Source: Persicimonas caeni (GTDB taxonomy: Bacteria > Myxococcota_A > Bradymonadia > Bradymonadales > Bradymonadaceae). From it: 64,000 nt of DNA. The position numbers and the translations under genes are program-made. Of the stretch, positions 29,250 to 34,279 are shown piece by piece (the stretch's first letter is position 1; each line of letters opens with the position of its first letter). The stretch spans positions 7,591,074 through 7,655,073 of the forward strand of contig NZ_CP041186.1 in the NCBI RefSeq assembly GCF_006517175.1, read 5' to 3'. The notes beneath the pieces are model-generated. The model had not been told where the DNA came from and searched no databases. It was given only the letters and a program-made list of their open reading frames with translations.

Positions 29250-29286
29250 AAAAGGCCGACTCAGCGTGTGGCTGAATCGGCCTTTT
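29250..29286 (-). terminator. Terminator of the tRNA-Ala pair
   Basis: AAAAGGCCGA-(n17)-TCGGCCTTTT with additional pairing of CTCAGC/GGCTGA inside. On the minus strand it follows the second tRNA-Ala by 15 nt and ends in TTTT. Confidence 0.75.
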
Positions 29287-29301
29287 GTCTGTGCTTCGAA
29301 G

Positions 29302-29374
29302 TGGAGCCAGAGGGACTTGAACCCTCGACCTCTACACTGCCAGTGTAGCGCTCTCCCAGCTGAGCTATGGCCCC
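29302..29374 (-). tRNA. tRNA-Ala (anticodon GGC), copy 2 in transcription order
   Basis: 73 nt, folding as a cloverleaf: acceptor GGGGCCA/TGGCTCC with the G3-U70 pair that identifies alanine tRNA, discriminator A73, D-arm AGCTCAGCTGGGAGAGCG, anticodon stem CTACA/TGTAG with loop CTGGCAG, and T-arm GAGGG-TTCAAGT-CCCTC. The CCA end is not encoded. It differs from its neighbour only in one T-stem base pair. Decodes GCC/GCU. Confidence 0.95.
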
Positions 29375-29427
29375 ATGGGTCAAATTGTGTGCTGCTCGCC
29401 GAACCAGCGGTTCGGGGTGCTCTAAAG

Positions 29428-29500
29428 TGGAGCCAGGGGGACTTGAACCCCCGACCTCTACACTGCCAGTGTAGCGCTCTCCCAGCTGAGCTATGGCCCC
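29428..29500 (-). tRNA. tRNA-Ala (anticodon GGC), copy 1 in transcription order
   Basis: 73 nt, identical to the tRNA at 29302-29374 except that the second T-stem pair is G-C instead of A-U (GGGGG-TTCAAGT-CCCCC). It has G3-U70, A73 and no encoded CCA. It is the first of the pair after the promoter at 29545-29573; 53 nt separate the two. Confidence 0.95.
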
Positions 29501-29544
29501 ATTTGGGTTTCCGTCGGCGGGGCTATTTCCGCCGCGGGACGCAG

Positions 29545-29573
29545 TTTATAGGGGAGGTTTTCAGGCGTGTCAA
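29545..29573 (-). promoter_or_regulatory. sigma-70 promoter of the tRNA-Ala pair
   Basis: On the minus strand, TTGACA (29573-29568), a 17-nt spacer and TATAAA (29550-29545): near-consensus boxes with ideal spacing. The -35 overlaps the stop codon of the upstream TPR gene. Confidence 0.8.
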
Positions 29574-30589
29574 TGACTTTTTTCGACGGTGGCCGATTCG
29601 TCCTTCGAGCCAGACTCGGAGGCATCGCCAGCGCCGCCCGCCGGGTCACCCTTGGCGCCGCCGACCTTTTGGCGCAAGTACTCGGCGTACCGCTGATAAT
29701 CGGAACGCGGCTGGGCTTTGGCAAGTCGGTCGAAGTACTCGAGCGCCTTTTCGTAGTCGCCGGCCTTGTAGGCGAGCATCCCGTAGGCAAAGCCGGCGTT
29801 GTAGTTGGGGAACTGACGGGCGAGCTTGGCAAGAAACTTCTGGCGCTCCTCGAGGGTGTAGCCGATGGCATCTTCGACGCGCCACCGGGCAAAGGCCAGG
29901 GCGCCTTCCTTGGTCAACTGGGCCCACGGGTCTTTCTGGTCGTGAATGATATGCGCCCATCGGTACCGGTTGAGCAGGTCGACGATGTGCGGGGAGACCT
30001 TCGACGACCACTTGCCTTCCTCGGTCACCAGACCGCGCTCGACCAAAACGGGCAAGAGCTTTCCGCAGTTGTCACGGTAGGCCGCGAATTCTTCGGCGGG
30101 CGGATTTGCCTTGGCCTCGTCCATCGTGACTTGGCCGGACTGGATCGCCCCGAGCAATGTGTCCAACCCGGTGGCGCATTCGCGAAAGACGGGCTCGCCG
30201 GTGACCACGAAGGCGTCGAAGCCCGAGCCGAGCACGGTTTCGTTGGCCCAGACCTTAACGGTGGCTGCGCGTTTGAGCTGCTCCTCTTGGGAGACGCCGC
30301 CAAATTGAGCGCGGTGCACCTGGCGGGCGGCCGCGATCAGCTCTTGCCACTCACCTTGGACTTGCTGCAGGTTAACGTCGGCATACTTCTCTTGACGCTG
30401 CTGCTCCAACTTCTGCTGATTGACGGTCAACTCGGGGAACTGGAAATCCTCGTCGGTGACCTCGCGCGCCGGACCCATGCGCCAATAGGCAAACCCGGCG
30501 GCGAGCAGGGCGCAGATGAGCAGGCCGGCGATGATCGTCGCGTCGAGCTTGGACGGCTGCGGTACGTTCGAAGAGAGCTTGTTGCCCAT
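29570..30589 (-). CDS. Membrane-anchored TPR-containing protein of unknown function
   Basis: A 339-residue protein. The N-terminus is short and polar, then one transmembrane helix (about residues 17-35, IIAGLLICALLAAGFAYW), then a Gln/Glu-rich helical stalk and an alpha-helical domain with two cysteines (FRECATG, YRDNCGKLL) that may pair. A TPR-like hairpin (GMLAYKAGDYEKALEYFDRL, about 276-295) lies near the C-terminus before a low-complexity Gly/Ser/Glu tail. The start at 30589 has GGAG six bases before ATG; ATG four codons upstream is also possible. The function is unknown. Divergent from the channel gene. Confidence 0.7.
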   Translation of the reverse strand: MGNKLSSNVPQPSKLDATIIAGLLICALLAAGFAYWRMGPAREVTDEDFQFPELTVNQQKLEQQRQEKYADVNLQQVQGEWQELIAAARQVHRAQFGGVSQEEQLKRAATVKVWANETVLGSGFDAFVVTGEPVFRECATGLDTLLGAIQSGQVTMDEAKANPPAEEFAAYRDNCGKLLPVLVERGLVTEEGKWSSKVSPHIVDLLNRYRWAHIIHDQKDPWAQLTKEGALAFARWRVEDAIGYTLEERQKFLAKLARQFPNYNAGFAYGMLAYKAGDYEKALEYFDRLAKAQPRSDYQRYAEYLRQKVGGAKGDPAGGAGDASESGSKDESATVEKSH

Positions 30590-30703
30590 CAATGACTCCA
30601 TACTCCTGAGGAGGGCAGGCCGGTGGGCCCGCCCGGGTTCAGGCTGAAAGGGCGGTTCGATACGGACCGGCCTTGTCAGCGCTGATGAGTGCATGCAGAG
30701 TAA

Positions 30704-32140
30704 ATGGCTTTGCGCTCAGGAATCAATGCGGATGTACCCATGGCGTTGCGTCGCAAAGTAAGAAAAGTACTCAATCACCGAGTCACCGAGGCCCTCGTTG
30801 CGCTGCTCATCATCGTCTCGGTGGTGCTGGTGCTGGCCGAGGCTTGGCTGCAACGCACCGATCCGTTGTATTGGCAGATCCGGCGGGCGAACGACGTCAT
30901 CACGCTGGTGTTCGTCATCGAGTTGTTCATTCGCTACTACGCCGAGCGCCGAAAGGAGCGCTTCTTTCGAAAGTGCTGGTATGACATCCTCGCGGTGCTT
31001 CCGGTCTTTCGGGCGGTGCGCTTTCTGCGCGTGCTTCGCTTGCTTCGACTCTACCGGCTGGGCATCATCGCCACGCGCCGGCTGCGCCGCTTCTCCAGCG
31101 CCTTTCGGGTGGTACGTGTCGAGTACGTCATCGTCGGGCTGACGATCCTGACGGTCGTGCTCATGGGGGCGATGTCGATGCGGGTGGTCGAGGGGCGGTT
31201 TAACGCCGATTTCGCCACACTCGACCAGTCGTTGTGGTTTGCAGTGATGACCTTGATTGCGGCCGAGCCGGTCGGCGGAGCCCCCGTCACTCCGATGGGG
31301 CGGGTCGTAACCCTGGCGATGATGCTCAGCGGATTGACCGTTTTCGCGGTCTTTACCGGTACGGTGTCCGCGGTGATGATCGAAACGCTTCGAAAAGTAA
31401 GGTTGCATGGCATGGAACTCGACGATTTGTACGAACACGTGATCATCTGCGGCTGGAATCAAGCCGGCCCGCTGGTGGTGCGCGAGTTGATGAACGACGC
31501 ACGCTACGACCACTTTGTGATCATCACCGAGAACGAGGCGATCGAGAACGATCCGGTCGTCCAAGAGTTCCCCGACCAAATCTTGACCCTCGTGGGCGAT
31601 TATACCCGCATCGATTGCCTCAAGGAGGCCGGCGTCGAGCGCGCCGGCGTGGCATTGCTGTTGGCGGATTCGACGATGGAGGAGCGCTCGACCCAAGATC
31701 GCGACGCGCGCACGGTGCTGGCGGCCATGCTCATCGAAAAACTCAACGCCGACATTTACACCACCGTGCAGCTGCTCAACCGTGACAATGAGGCGAGCCT
31801 GCGTCGGGTTGGCGTCGAGGAGATCATCGTCAGCGAGGAGTATGTCGGCAACATTATGGCCACGGTCACACGCAATCGTGGAATTGTTTCGATGCTCGAC
31901 GAACTTCTTACTACAGCGTACGGACATCAGTTTTATCGATGCGCGATTCCCTCCGAAATGATTGGTATGCACATCGGAGACGCGATCTCGCATCTCAAGA
32001 AAGAATACGACGCAACTTTGCTGGCGGTGGACCTGCAAAACGGGCCGAGGATCAACTCGGTCAAGGTCAACCCACCGACCGATTTGGTGCTCGAAGAGAC
32101 GCACTTTGTTTATATCGCCGCCCCCAAACCGATCGATTGA
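30704..32140 (+). CDS. Voltage-gated-type ion channel with RCK (TrkA-N/TrkA-C) regulatory region and atypical pore
   Basis: A 478-residue channel. The membrane part (about residues 27-235) holds S1-S4-like helices with arginine-rich S4 (RFLRVLRLLRLYRLGI), a pore loop and a final helix. The cytoplasmic part has an RCK/TrkA-N nucleotide-binding domain starting at HVIICGWNQAG (about 246) with acidic residue in VIITENEA, and a TrkA-C-like end. The pore-loop sequence is LWFAVMTLIAAEPVGG (Leu177-Gly192), where potassium channels have T-V-G-Y-G; the following PVTPMGR is typical. Ion selectivity is thus doubtful. A second ATG (30740, MALRRKVRK) is an equally good start. exbB follows 42 nt downstream. 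Confidence 0.85.
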   Translation: MALRSGINADVPMALRRKVRKVLNHRVTEALVALLIIVSVVLVLAEAWLQRTDPLYWQIRRANDVITLVFVIELFIRYYAERRKERFFRKCWYDILAVLPVFRAVRFLRVLRLLRLYRLGIIATRRLRRFSSAFRVVRVEYVIVGLTILTVVLMGAMSMRVVEGRFNADFATLDQSLWFAVMTLIAAEPVGGAPVTPMGRVVTLAMMLSGLTVFAVFTGTVSAVMIETLRKVRLHGMELDDLYEHVIICGWNQAGPLVVRELMNDARYDHFVIITENEAIENDPVVQEFPDQILTLVGDYTRIDCLKEAGVERAGVALLLADSTMEERSTQDRDARTVLAAMLIEKLNADIYTTVQLLNRDNEASLRRVGVEEIIVSEEYVGNIMATVTRNRGIVSMLDELLTTAYGHQFYRCAIPSEMIGMHIGDAISHLKKEYDATLLAVDLQNGPRINSVKVNPPTDLVLEETHFVYIAAPKPID

Positions 32141-32182
32141 TCGGGAGAGGGCGGATTCTCAGACATACACTCTCGAGGAACG

Positions 32183-32839
32183 ATGCTTACCGAAATTCTG
32201 CTGGACGCGGCGCTCATTGGCGCCGAATGGGTGCTGTGGCTACTGGTCATCCTCAGCTTGCTGAGCGTGCTCGCCATGATCGAGCGGGCGATGTTCTACG
32301 GAAAGCGTGCGATCGACATCCAAGCGCTGCGAGGCAAGCTCGAGCAGCACTTCAGCAAGGCCGAGTTCGAGAAGGCCGCCAAGATGCTCGAGGAGTACGC
32401 CGAGACGATGGAGGCGCGCGTGGTTCTCTTTGGCATTCGCGACTGGGAACGCGGCGCTGCGGCCGTCGAAGATCGCATGACCGGTGCCCTGTCGACCGAG
32501 AAGAACCGCTACGAGAAGTACCTGGCGTTTCTCGGTACGGTCGGCAACAACGCGCCGTTCATCGGGCTCTTCGGGACGGTGCTGGGGATTATCGGTGCCT
32601 TCGAGAACCTGGCGGAGGGAAGCCAAGAAGCAGCCCAGATGGTCATGGCGGCTATCGGTGAGGCGCTCGTGGCCACCGGCGTCGGCCTTCTGGTCGCCAT
32701 CCCGGCGGTCATCGCGTTCAACGCCTTCAAAACGCGCATCAAGAAGTCGGTCGCCCAGACCGATTTGTTGGGGCGCACGCTGCTGGCCTACCTCAGAAAT
32801 GAGAAGCCGCCGCGCGGCGCTGACGGCACGGCCAGCTAG
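32183..32839 (+). CDS. exbB: MotA/TolQ/ExbB proton-channel family protein
   Basis: A 218-residue protein with three membrane helices: about residues 14-35 (EWVLWLLVILSLLSVLAMIE), 115-140 and 155-180. The family core is GNNAPFIGLFGTVLGIIGAF and EALVATGVGLLVAIPAV, where conserved Thr residues line the proton path. With the downstream ExbD it should form the pmf-driven motor energising TonB. A cytoplasmic loop (about 50-110) contains the usual helical domain. It lies 42 nt after the channel gene and 64 nt before exbD on the same strand. Confidence 0.93.
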   Translation: MLTEILLDAALIGAEWVLWLLVILSLLSVLAMIERAMFYGKRAIDIQALRGKLEQHFSKAEFEKAAKMLEEYAETMEARVVLFGIRDWERGAAAVEDRMTGALSTEKNRYEKYLAFLGTVGNNAPFIGLFGTVLGIIGAFENLAEGSQEAAQMVMAAIGEALVATGVGLLVAIPAVIAFNAFKTRIKKSVAQTDLLGRTLLAYLRNEKPPRGADGTAS

Positions 32840-32903
32840 ACCTCGGCCGAACTAGAGCAGGGCGCAGCCCGGAAACCACTGAACCAATCGGACTGGATAA
32901 ATC

Positions 32904-33326
32904 ATGGCTGGGTTCAACTCGGGAGACGACGAAGACGTCATTGCGGGGATCAACGTCACACCGCTTGTCGACATCGTCTTGGTGTTGCTGATCATCTTCA
33001 TGGTCACCACCTCCTATATCGTAAAGCAGCAAATCAAAGTCGATCTGCCCAAGGCCGCCAGCGGCGAGTCCGAGGTGCAGTCGACGCTGACCTTCAAGAT
33101 TTCGGAGGACGGCGTCTACTTCTTGGATGGCAACGAGACCACCCTCGAGCAGATTGGGGCGACGGTGAAGTCACGTCTGAAGAAGGAGCCCGAGAGCAGG
33201 GCGATCATCGCCGCCGACAAGAAGGTCGACTACGGAAAGGTCGTCGACCTGATCGACACGATCAAGCAGAACGGGCTGGATAAATTCGCCCTGAACATCG
33301 AGAAGAAACAGAAGGCGACCCCGTGA
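32904..33326 (+). CDS. exbD: ExbD/TolR family biopolymer transport protein
   Basis: A 140-residue protein with one transmembrane helix (about residues 20-40) in the block [20 protein letters not shown]. Asp23 matches the essential protonatable Asp25 of E. coli ExbD. The periplasmic domain (about 45-138) ends in [20 protein letters not shown], typical of ExbD. The stop overlaps the tonB start by 4 nt (GTGA), so ExbD and TonB are translationally coupled. Confidence 0.94.
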
Positions 33327-34279
33327 GTGACAAGGCTCCAACATCCGAAAAGGACCGGAGCAGCGAGGGCGCGCCCATCCGTGATCCGCTGTACGAAGAG
33401 AAGCGGACGCTCGCCCAGCGCCTCCTGTCGAGCACCGGAGGGCTGGTCGGTGCCGTGGTCGTACACGCCGTGGCGGCGTTCTTGCTGATGACGCTCGCCC
33501 CCATGTGCAACGTTGCGCATACAGACGACGAGCCGGACGAGGACTCGATTGTCGAGGTGGCTGTGGTCGACGAGCCGGAGCCGCCGCCTCCCCCACCCGA
33601 GCCGGAACCCGAGCCTGAGCCTGAACCCGAGCCTGAGCCCGAGCCTGAACCCGAACCCGAACCCGAACCTGAGCCCGAACCCGAACCGGAGCCCGAACCC
33701 GAGCCCGAGCCGGAACCTGAACCCGCGCGTGAGCCGGAGCCGAGCGAGCAGCCGGATCCGAACGCCAAGCAGGCTGAATCGATGAACCCGGTGCATCTGG
33801 AGGGGCTGACGGCCGACTCGGCCTCGGATTCGGGCGACGCGCCTGCGTTCAAAATTGGAACCGGAATCAAGACGGGAAAGGTCACCAAAAAGTACGTCGA
33901 CCCGAAGCGTTTCGGGAAGATCAAGACGGGCAAGGGCGACGGTGACGGCTATGGAAGCGGCGACAAGCCGGCGCCCAAAGGCAAGCCTGGCGGCGCCACT
34001 CGCAAGCCCAAAGCGATCGCGCGACCGAAGGCCGATCCGTCCGAATATCCCCTGCAAGCCAAACGTCGAGGGATCGGCGGTACGGTCGTGGCAATTTTGA
34101 CCATCGACACCAAGGGCAAGGTGGTGGCGGTCAACATCATCAAGAGTGCCGGCAATGGCTTTGACGAGCTCGCCGAGAAGACCTTCCGCAAGTGGAAATT
34201 CGAGCCTGCTCTCGACAACGGAGTGCCTGTACAGGACACCATTCGTGCCACGCATGTCTTCGAAGTCGACGACTACTGA
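33323..34279 (+). CDS. tonB: TonB energy transducer with long Glu-Pro linker
   Basis: A 318-residue TonB. One transmembrane helix (about residues 39-59) contains [11 protein letters not shown] with the family His (His48). A proline linker follows with 21 consecutive Glu-Pro pairs (residues 93-134). The C-terminal domain (about 225-318) has [38 protein letters not shown] and ATHVFEV, typical of TonB. The GTG start overlaps exbD by 4 nt. The Glu-Pro linker is all negative; E. coli TonB has both Glu-Pro and Lys-Pro. It links the ExbB-ExbD motor to outer-membrane receptors, none of which is encoded here. Confidence 0.93.
33599..33724 (+). repeat. Hexanucleotide Glu-Pro coding repeat in tonB
   Basis: Twenty-one GA(A/G)CC(n) hexamers in frame encode 21 Glu-Pro pairs. 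The hexamers vary at both third positions, so this is conserved as protein rather than as a perfect DNA repeat. Confidence 0.85.

Follow-up and report, generated by a model that had tools for sequence, protein, structure and literature searches.

A voltage-sensor and RCK-domain channel of Persicimonas caeni with a conserved Glu-Pro motif at the position of the K+ filter

Native prokaryotic Ca2+ channels are rare, and it was as the first voltage-dependent one that CavMr was reported in 2020 (PMC7041947); in a mutant of it, D7M, one filter Glu per subunit is enough to maintain high Ca2+ selectivity (PMC7041947). In plants, CASTOR is a selective Ca2+ channel without TVGYG, the filter being AD265SGNHA, in which D265N abolishes current; E493Q shows no channel activity and D442A leads to no root nodules (PMC6697748). 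NirBac channels, one of them from Anaeromyxobacter, are permeable to Li+, Na+, K+ and Rb+ (PMC4607889). Here we describe a channel gene in a 64,000-nucleotide stretch of Persicimonas caeni DNA (contig NZ_CP041186.1, positions 7,591,074 to 7,655,073; the window in what follows), located at 7.59-7.66 Mb on the 8.05 Mb single-contig genome. Its product combines a voltage sensor, a pore and an RCK domain, and carries a conserved Glu-Pro motif at the position of TVGYG. We put at roughly 0.55 the probability that it is a cation channel gated by voltage and RCK, not selective for K+ and probably permeable to Ca2+.

Architecture, filter and clade

The open reading frame at 30704-32140, on the plus strand, is genuine and encodes 478 residues. 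The protein matches the Pfam families Ion_trans (residues 25-222), TrkA_N (246-376) and Slo-like_RCK, a combination present in all 15 members scanned of what we call the EP clade, after the Glu-Pro pair of its filter. Translation may start at the ATG at 30740 instead of at 30704, since homology begins only at residues 11-15. The features of the channel are as follows.

30704..32140, plus strand: six-transmembrane RCK channel with a GEP/AEP-type filter (Pfam; 38 sequences; AlphaFold2 mean predicted local distance difference test, pLDDT, 83.6)
30911..30985, plus strand: S2-S3 stretch, in which F70, E73 and D94 are the charge-transfer residues (each unchanged in all 37 sequences with letters there)
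31010..31057, plus strand: S4 helix with Arg at 103, 106, 109, 112, 115 and 118 (conservation counts)
31220..31261, plus strand: pore helix, residues 173-186 (AlphaFold2 secondary structure)
31259..31276, plus strand: filter A186-A187-E188-P189-V190-G191, in place of TVGYGD (ungapped alignment with KvAP and TVGYG paralogues)
31436..32137, plus strand: RCK domain, from H245, with CASTOR/DMI1 RCK1 as nearest solved relative (Pfam, RCK profile search)

The pore loop reads SLWFAVMTLIAAEPVGGAPVTPMGR, so that LIAAEPVGG stands where TTVGYGD would be expected. The filter (AAEPV) aligns without gaps to KvAP and to TVGYG paralogues, and therefore E188 corresponds to the first Gly of GYG and P189 to the Tyr position. 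Among 38 sequences, consisting of the window protein and 37 relatives with duplicates removed, the consensus is [AG][GAS]EPxG, with Glu at position 188 in 36, Pro at 189 in 37 and Gly at 191 in 34; neither TVGYG nor any close variant occurs in any of the 38. All except three (GEM, ADP and TQP) read [AG][GAS]EP or near. Two clade members with altered filters, L070 from a Cloacimonetes bin (GEMGQG) and L102 from genome G063 (TQPTPD), are natural variants of the motif.

These sequences were drawn from a search of relatives, a phylum-wide search using a profile of 15 rows, and a search of a named genome collection, in which the single protein as query returned no loci and an alignment returned 27, at an identity to the window protein of at least 37%. 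A plasmid search yielded only distant RCK channels of less than 30% identity. The EP filter was found in Myxococcota, Cyanobacteriota, Planctomycetota, Calditrichota, Acidobacteriota and Cloacimonadota, with named records from Nodosilinea, Leptolyngbya and Phormidium (all Cyanobacteriota) and from Caldithrix, and further records from a planctomycete, a Holophagae bacterium and a Cloacimonetes bacterium; many of these are metagenome bins, the names of which can be wrong. That an acidic motif recurs in relatives from several phyla argues that the channel probably conducts an ion other than K+.

A preliminary description of this stretch, made from the sequence alone, had placed an Arg-rich S4, a pore loop and an RCK region in one 478-residue protein upstream of exbB-exbD-tonB, and Pfam, the reading frame and the coordinates agree with it. 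The non-TVGYG pore loop that it pointed out is likewise genuine, conserved across phyla and ungapped against KvAP, and filter error, which it had named as grounds for abandoning its proposal, is excluded because 38 sequences, 37 of them relatives, share the motif type. Of the post-filter PVTPMGR, which it described as retained, P194 (35/38) and G199 (38/38) characterise the family, but P197, present in 9/38, does not. In S6, G210 and F214 are invariant in the family, and M207 and L211 nearly so.

The AlphaFold2 model (predicted template modelling score 0.48) has the pore helix at 173-186, a loop at 187-196 and the inner helix at 197-234, and the pore helix and filter loop are modelled with a block pLDDT of about 91-94. 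Fold searches with Foldseek and VIA match it to Slo1, MthK and GsuK, Slo/BK being at the top in Foldseek; CASTOR chains are not among the best 50 matches listed, which carries no weight either way. As a prediction for a single chain, the model confirms the channel layout but not the chemistry of the pore, for which a tetramer would be needed.

The Phe, Glu and Asp of S2-S3 together with a regular S4 Arg pattern form the charge-transfer layout of voltage-gated channels, and these hallmarks, Arg at every third position of S4 and the S2/S3 charge-transfer acids, are present here. R115 is conserved in 36/36 sequences, R109 and R118 each in 35/37, R106 in 30/37, R103 in 28/37 and R112 in 30. Because the charge-transfer residues are conserved, the voltage sensor appears to be under selection.

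In a tree from which the filter and its flanking columns had been removed, the 38 EP rows fall on one side of a branch with a Shimodaira-Hasegawa-like approximate likelihood ratio test (SH-aLRT) support of 95, which separates them from same-architecture channels with TVGYG and also from the CASTOR/POLLUX-like channels of bacteria, of which 17 rows separate with an SH-aLRT of 99; the TVGYG rows need two changes. Being the product of a quick search with neither bootstrap nor root, the tree does not show which way the filter changed. The next-best matches, about 23-33% identical, share the voltage sensor-pore-RCK layout but have TTVGYGD or TTVGFGD as filter, and one TVGFG paralogue of this layout is encoded in the host genome itself (L050). 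Elsewhere, genome G010 has two adjoining voltage sensor-TVGYG-RCK channel genes in tandem (L046:5388-8769), and in G002, G009 and G020 (L047, L048 and L049) the frame after a comparable channel gene encodes an RCK on its own, resembling a split two-RCK channel.

Neither Pfam nor NCBIfam has a model dedicated to the EP clade; the nearest NCBIfam models are K+ channels, far below their cut-offs, and would mislead annotation. No description of the motif or family was found in the open-access literature, subscription papers being outside that search. Within the literature covered, EP-filter channels are thus a real and apparently undescribed subfamily, as the preliminary description had surmised; its proposal that another ion is conducted is also, in our reading, the best inference, with CASTOR as the nearest functional precedent for non-K+ conduction (PMC6697748).

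Ion selectivity and gating

The channel is envisaged as a tetramer in which each subunit would contribute an S1-S4 voltage sensor, an S5-P-S6 pore and a C-terminal RCK domain, the last forming a gating ring. With the K+ filter replaced by the conserved acidic [AG][GAS]-Glu-Pro-x-Gly, four Glu188 residues, one per subunit, would make up a ring at the pore-helix mouth, and Pro189 would stand in the way of a stacked-carbonyl K+ filter. Such a pore would most likely lack K+ selectivity; Ca2+ could probably enter it, alone or along with Na+, its opening presumably being controlled by voltage together with an RCK ligand.

The RCK domain points in the direction of the plant channels: in a profile search of the PDB with this domain only, the best match was CASTOR RCK1 (2.8e-21; 6o7c, whole RCK), followed by DMI1 (3.2e-17), BK (6.5e-12) and MthK (2.5e-11). 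Several observations weigh against the favoured reading. Ca2+ gating by the CASTOR route seems unlikely on sequence grounds because the Ca2+-sensing residues are mostly not conserved: D442 aligns to N359, D444 to D361 and E493 to Q409 (the printed alignment being numbered so that E493 falls in NCEF), and the acids at 553/554 are absent. The Asp of bacterial CASTOR-like filters, which read LTDPGYLGDD or TLDSGTMGGD, aligns two residues before E188, and the resemblance between the filters is therefore one of kind only. The EP profile, moreover, matches TVGYG paralogues (best 1.4e-96) above CASTOR-like channels (best 7e-33). We accordingly see a likeness in kind between the EP and CASTOR-like filters, but not a homology that can be demonstrated. 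Finally, myxobacteria are already known to have non-selective channels with odd filters, in the form of NirBac (PMC4607889).

That last point leads to the strongest alternative, a channel of the NirBac or NaK type that passes monovalent cations without selectivity, in which the filter would be simply widened and Glu188 structural. NirBac is a clear precedent, with a K+-channel body and an unrelated filter (PMC4607889), but the Glu-Pro pair is kept across phyla beyond what would be expected of a filter without chemical demands, and we consider this explanation unlikely, at about one chance in four. Less likely again, by about half, is a non-conducting voltage or ligand sensor, in which the Glu-Pro turn would close the pore and the state of the voltage sensor and RCK domain would be passed to partners, possibly ExbB/TolQ. 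Pro is unusual in a filter, and in seven genomes the gene lies directly upstream of exbB; yet the pore helix, the filter motif and S6 are strongly conserved, with G199, G210 and F214 invariant, and the exbB cassette occurs in genomes with no channel detected. A K+ channel with an alternative K+ filter would fit a body homologous to KvAP and MthK and the K+-channel identity of the nearest NCBIfam models, but is very improbable given 38 sequences without TVGYG or a close variant and a separate TVGFG channel in the same genome.

A non-K+-selective, probably Ca2+-permeable channel is thus the reading that we prefer. The wider claim, that prokaryotes of several phyla possess a hitherto undescribed family of Ca2+-permeable channels, gated by voltage and RCK, in which a BK-like body carries an acidic GEPxG filter, is a tentative one, to which we give somewhat less than even odds. 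If true, it would be another way, alongside that of CASTOR, in which a K+-channel scaffold comes to pass Ca2+, and a compact channel of 478 residues would be a test case for a change of selectivity on such a scaffold.

The exbB-exbD-tonB neighbourhood

The genes on either side of the channel are as follows.

29570..30694, minus strand: divergent TPR-like protein with a hydrophobic N-terminal segment (weak TPR matches; adjoins the channel or exbB in relatives)
32183..32839, plus strand: ExbB/TolQ-type proton channel subunit (MotA_ExbB 9.7e-32; TolQ 119.7 bits, cut-off 221)
32904..33326, plus strand: ExbD/TolR-type subunit (ExbD 9.1e-33)
33323..34279, plus strand: TonB-family protein, overlapping exbD (TonB_C 2.9e-17)

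The exbB-exbD-tonB label of the preliminary description holds as far as the MotA_ExbB, ExbD and TonB_C matches go, but the first two proteins score better on TolQ/TolR models than on ExbB/ExbD models, all below the NCBIfam equivalog cut-offs, and 'ExbB/TolQ-type' is therefore the safer label. In the TonB-family protein a Glu-Pro repeat extends over roughly 50 residues, an unusual length. Judging by the spacing, with 42 bases between channel and exbB, 64 between exbB and exbD, and exbD and tonB overlapping, the channel is likely to be co-transcribed with exbB-exbD-tonB; promoter and terminator scans gave results at chance level only. On the far side of the TPR gene are tandem tRNA-Ala (GGC) genes (29301-29374 and 29427-29500, minus strand), and the repeated peptide RDLNPRPLHCQCSALPAELWPH in the reading frame 29266-29949 is only the antisense translation of these two genes.

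Relatives share, in whole or in part, a block that comprises TPR-exbB-exbD-tonB together with purM, folC, a Crp-like gene and a pair of glycosyltransferase-like genes. The channel lies between the TPR gene and exbB, on the exbB strand, in the window and in G003, G004, G005, G007, G010 and G015, that is, in seven genomes of six genera and one family (the contigs of G004 and G007 end inside the cassette). In G015 (L035) no exbD or tonB was found after exbB though the contig continues, the cassette being rearranged or the contig misassembled. In G008, G006, G013 and G016 the TPR gene faces exbB directly: the EP channel of G008 is about 180 kb from the cassette, and none was detected in the other three by the relatives and phylum profile searches. 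In G001 and G012 channel and cassette are on separate contigs. As G008 groups in the tree with the window and G001/G012 with G005, the pattern fits one ancestral adjacency that was later broken.

The pairing with exbBD extends beyond this strain but was seen in one family only: of 26 other distinct loci, 21 lie outside the order and class and five within them, and there was no exbB or exbD near the channel in the flanks examined. As a functional rule, linkage to exbBD is rejected beyond that family on the flanks of these loci and on the cassettes with no channel detected. A dedicated module, in which the channel would tune the ion or voltage supply to TonB energisation, is compatible with any reading of the ion and has in its favour the shared strand, the 42-base gap and the order conserved in seven genomes; it is improbable in view of G006, G013 and G016, where the cassette occurs with no channel detected, of G008, G001 and G012, where both are present but apart, of the 26 loci, and of the eight ExbD-domain matches in the host genome. 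The TonB link of the preliminary description was not borne out in this dedicated form. Because the cassette is also found where no channel was detected, the channel is at most accessory to it, and the adjacency is a local arrangement with a weak link to TonB function.

Comparison with known channels

The EP channel has the six-helix Ion_trans region, S4 and RCK domain of a canonical RCK- or voltage-gated K+ channel and lacks its TVGYG or TVGFG. As in Slo/BK, voltage sensor, pore and RCK1 are in one chain, with Slo-like_RCK matched in 15 of 15 members, but there is one RCK instead of two and no TVGYG-type filter. The pore and RCK layout is also that of MthK, GsuK and E. coli Kch, from which it differs in the missing K+ filter; MthK E210 and E212, which we take to be the Ca2+ ligands of MthK, align to Q356 and L358. 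With NirBac, also found in Myxococcota, it shares a K+-channel body with a replaced filter, but NirBac is built on a Kir scaffold with no voltage sensor or RCK, and its reported filters are unrelated (PMC4607889). The CavMr/NaChBac family likewise joins a voltage sensor to an acidic filter (PMC7041947), although there the filter is TLExW, with Glu right after Thr-Leu, and RCK is absent, whereas the EP channel reads TL-x-x-x-EP.

With CASTOR, POLLUX and DMI1, the plant nuclear Ca2+ channels, the parallels are the RCK, which has its nearest solved relative there, the loss of TVGYG and a conserved acidic filter residue. Bacterial CASTOR-like channels, which do pass PF06241 (Castor_Poll_mid), share some genomes with EP channels; the domain was detected in 27 of the 141 genomes sampled from the phylum, among them that of the host, at 1.67 Mb, where a 696-residue frame (L127:1748-3835; G000:C1 near 1669593) has the filter LTDPGYLGDD. 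The window protein does not match PF06241, and only 2 of 15 EP members reach E<=0.01 (best 5.7e-4); on this account, and by the separate clade, the number of RCKs and the Ca2+ ligands, membership in CASTOR/POLLUX is ruled out. Unlike these channels, the EP channel has a full S1-S4 voltage sensor; it has a single RCK in 478 residues where CASTOR has two in tandem, and its filter differs in order and register, AGEPIG against TDPGYLG or ADSGNHA. It would offer a simple comparison for the Ca2+ channels of plant symbiosis.

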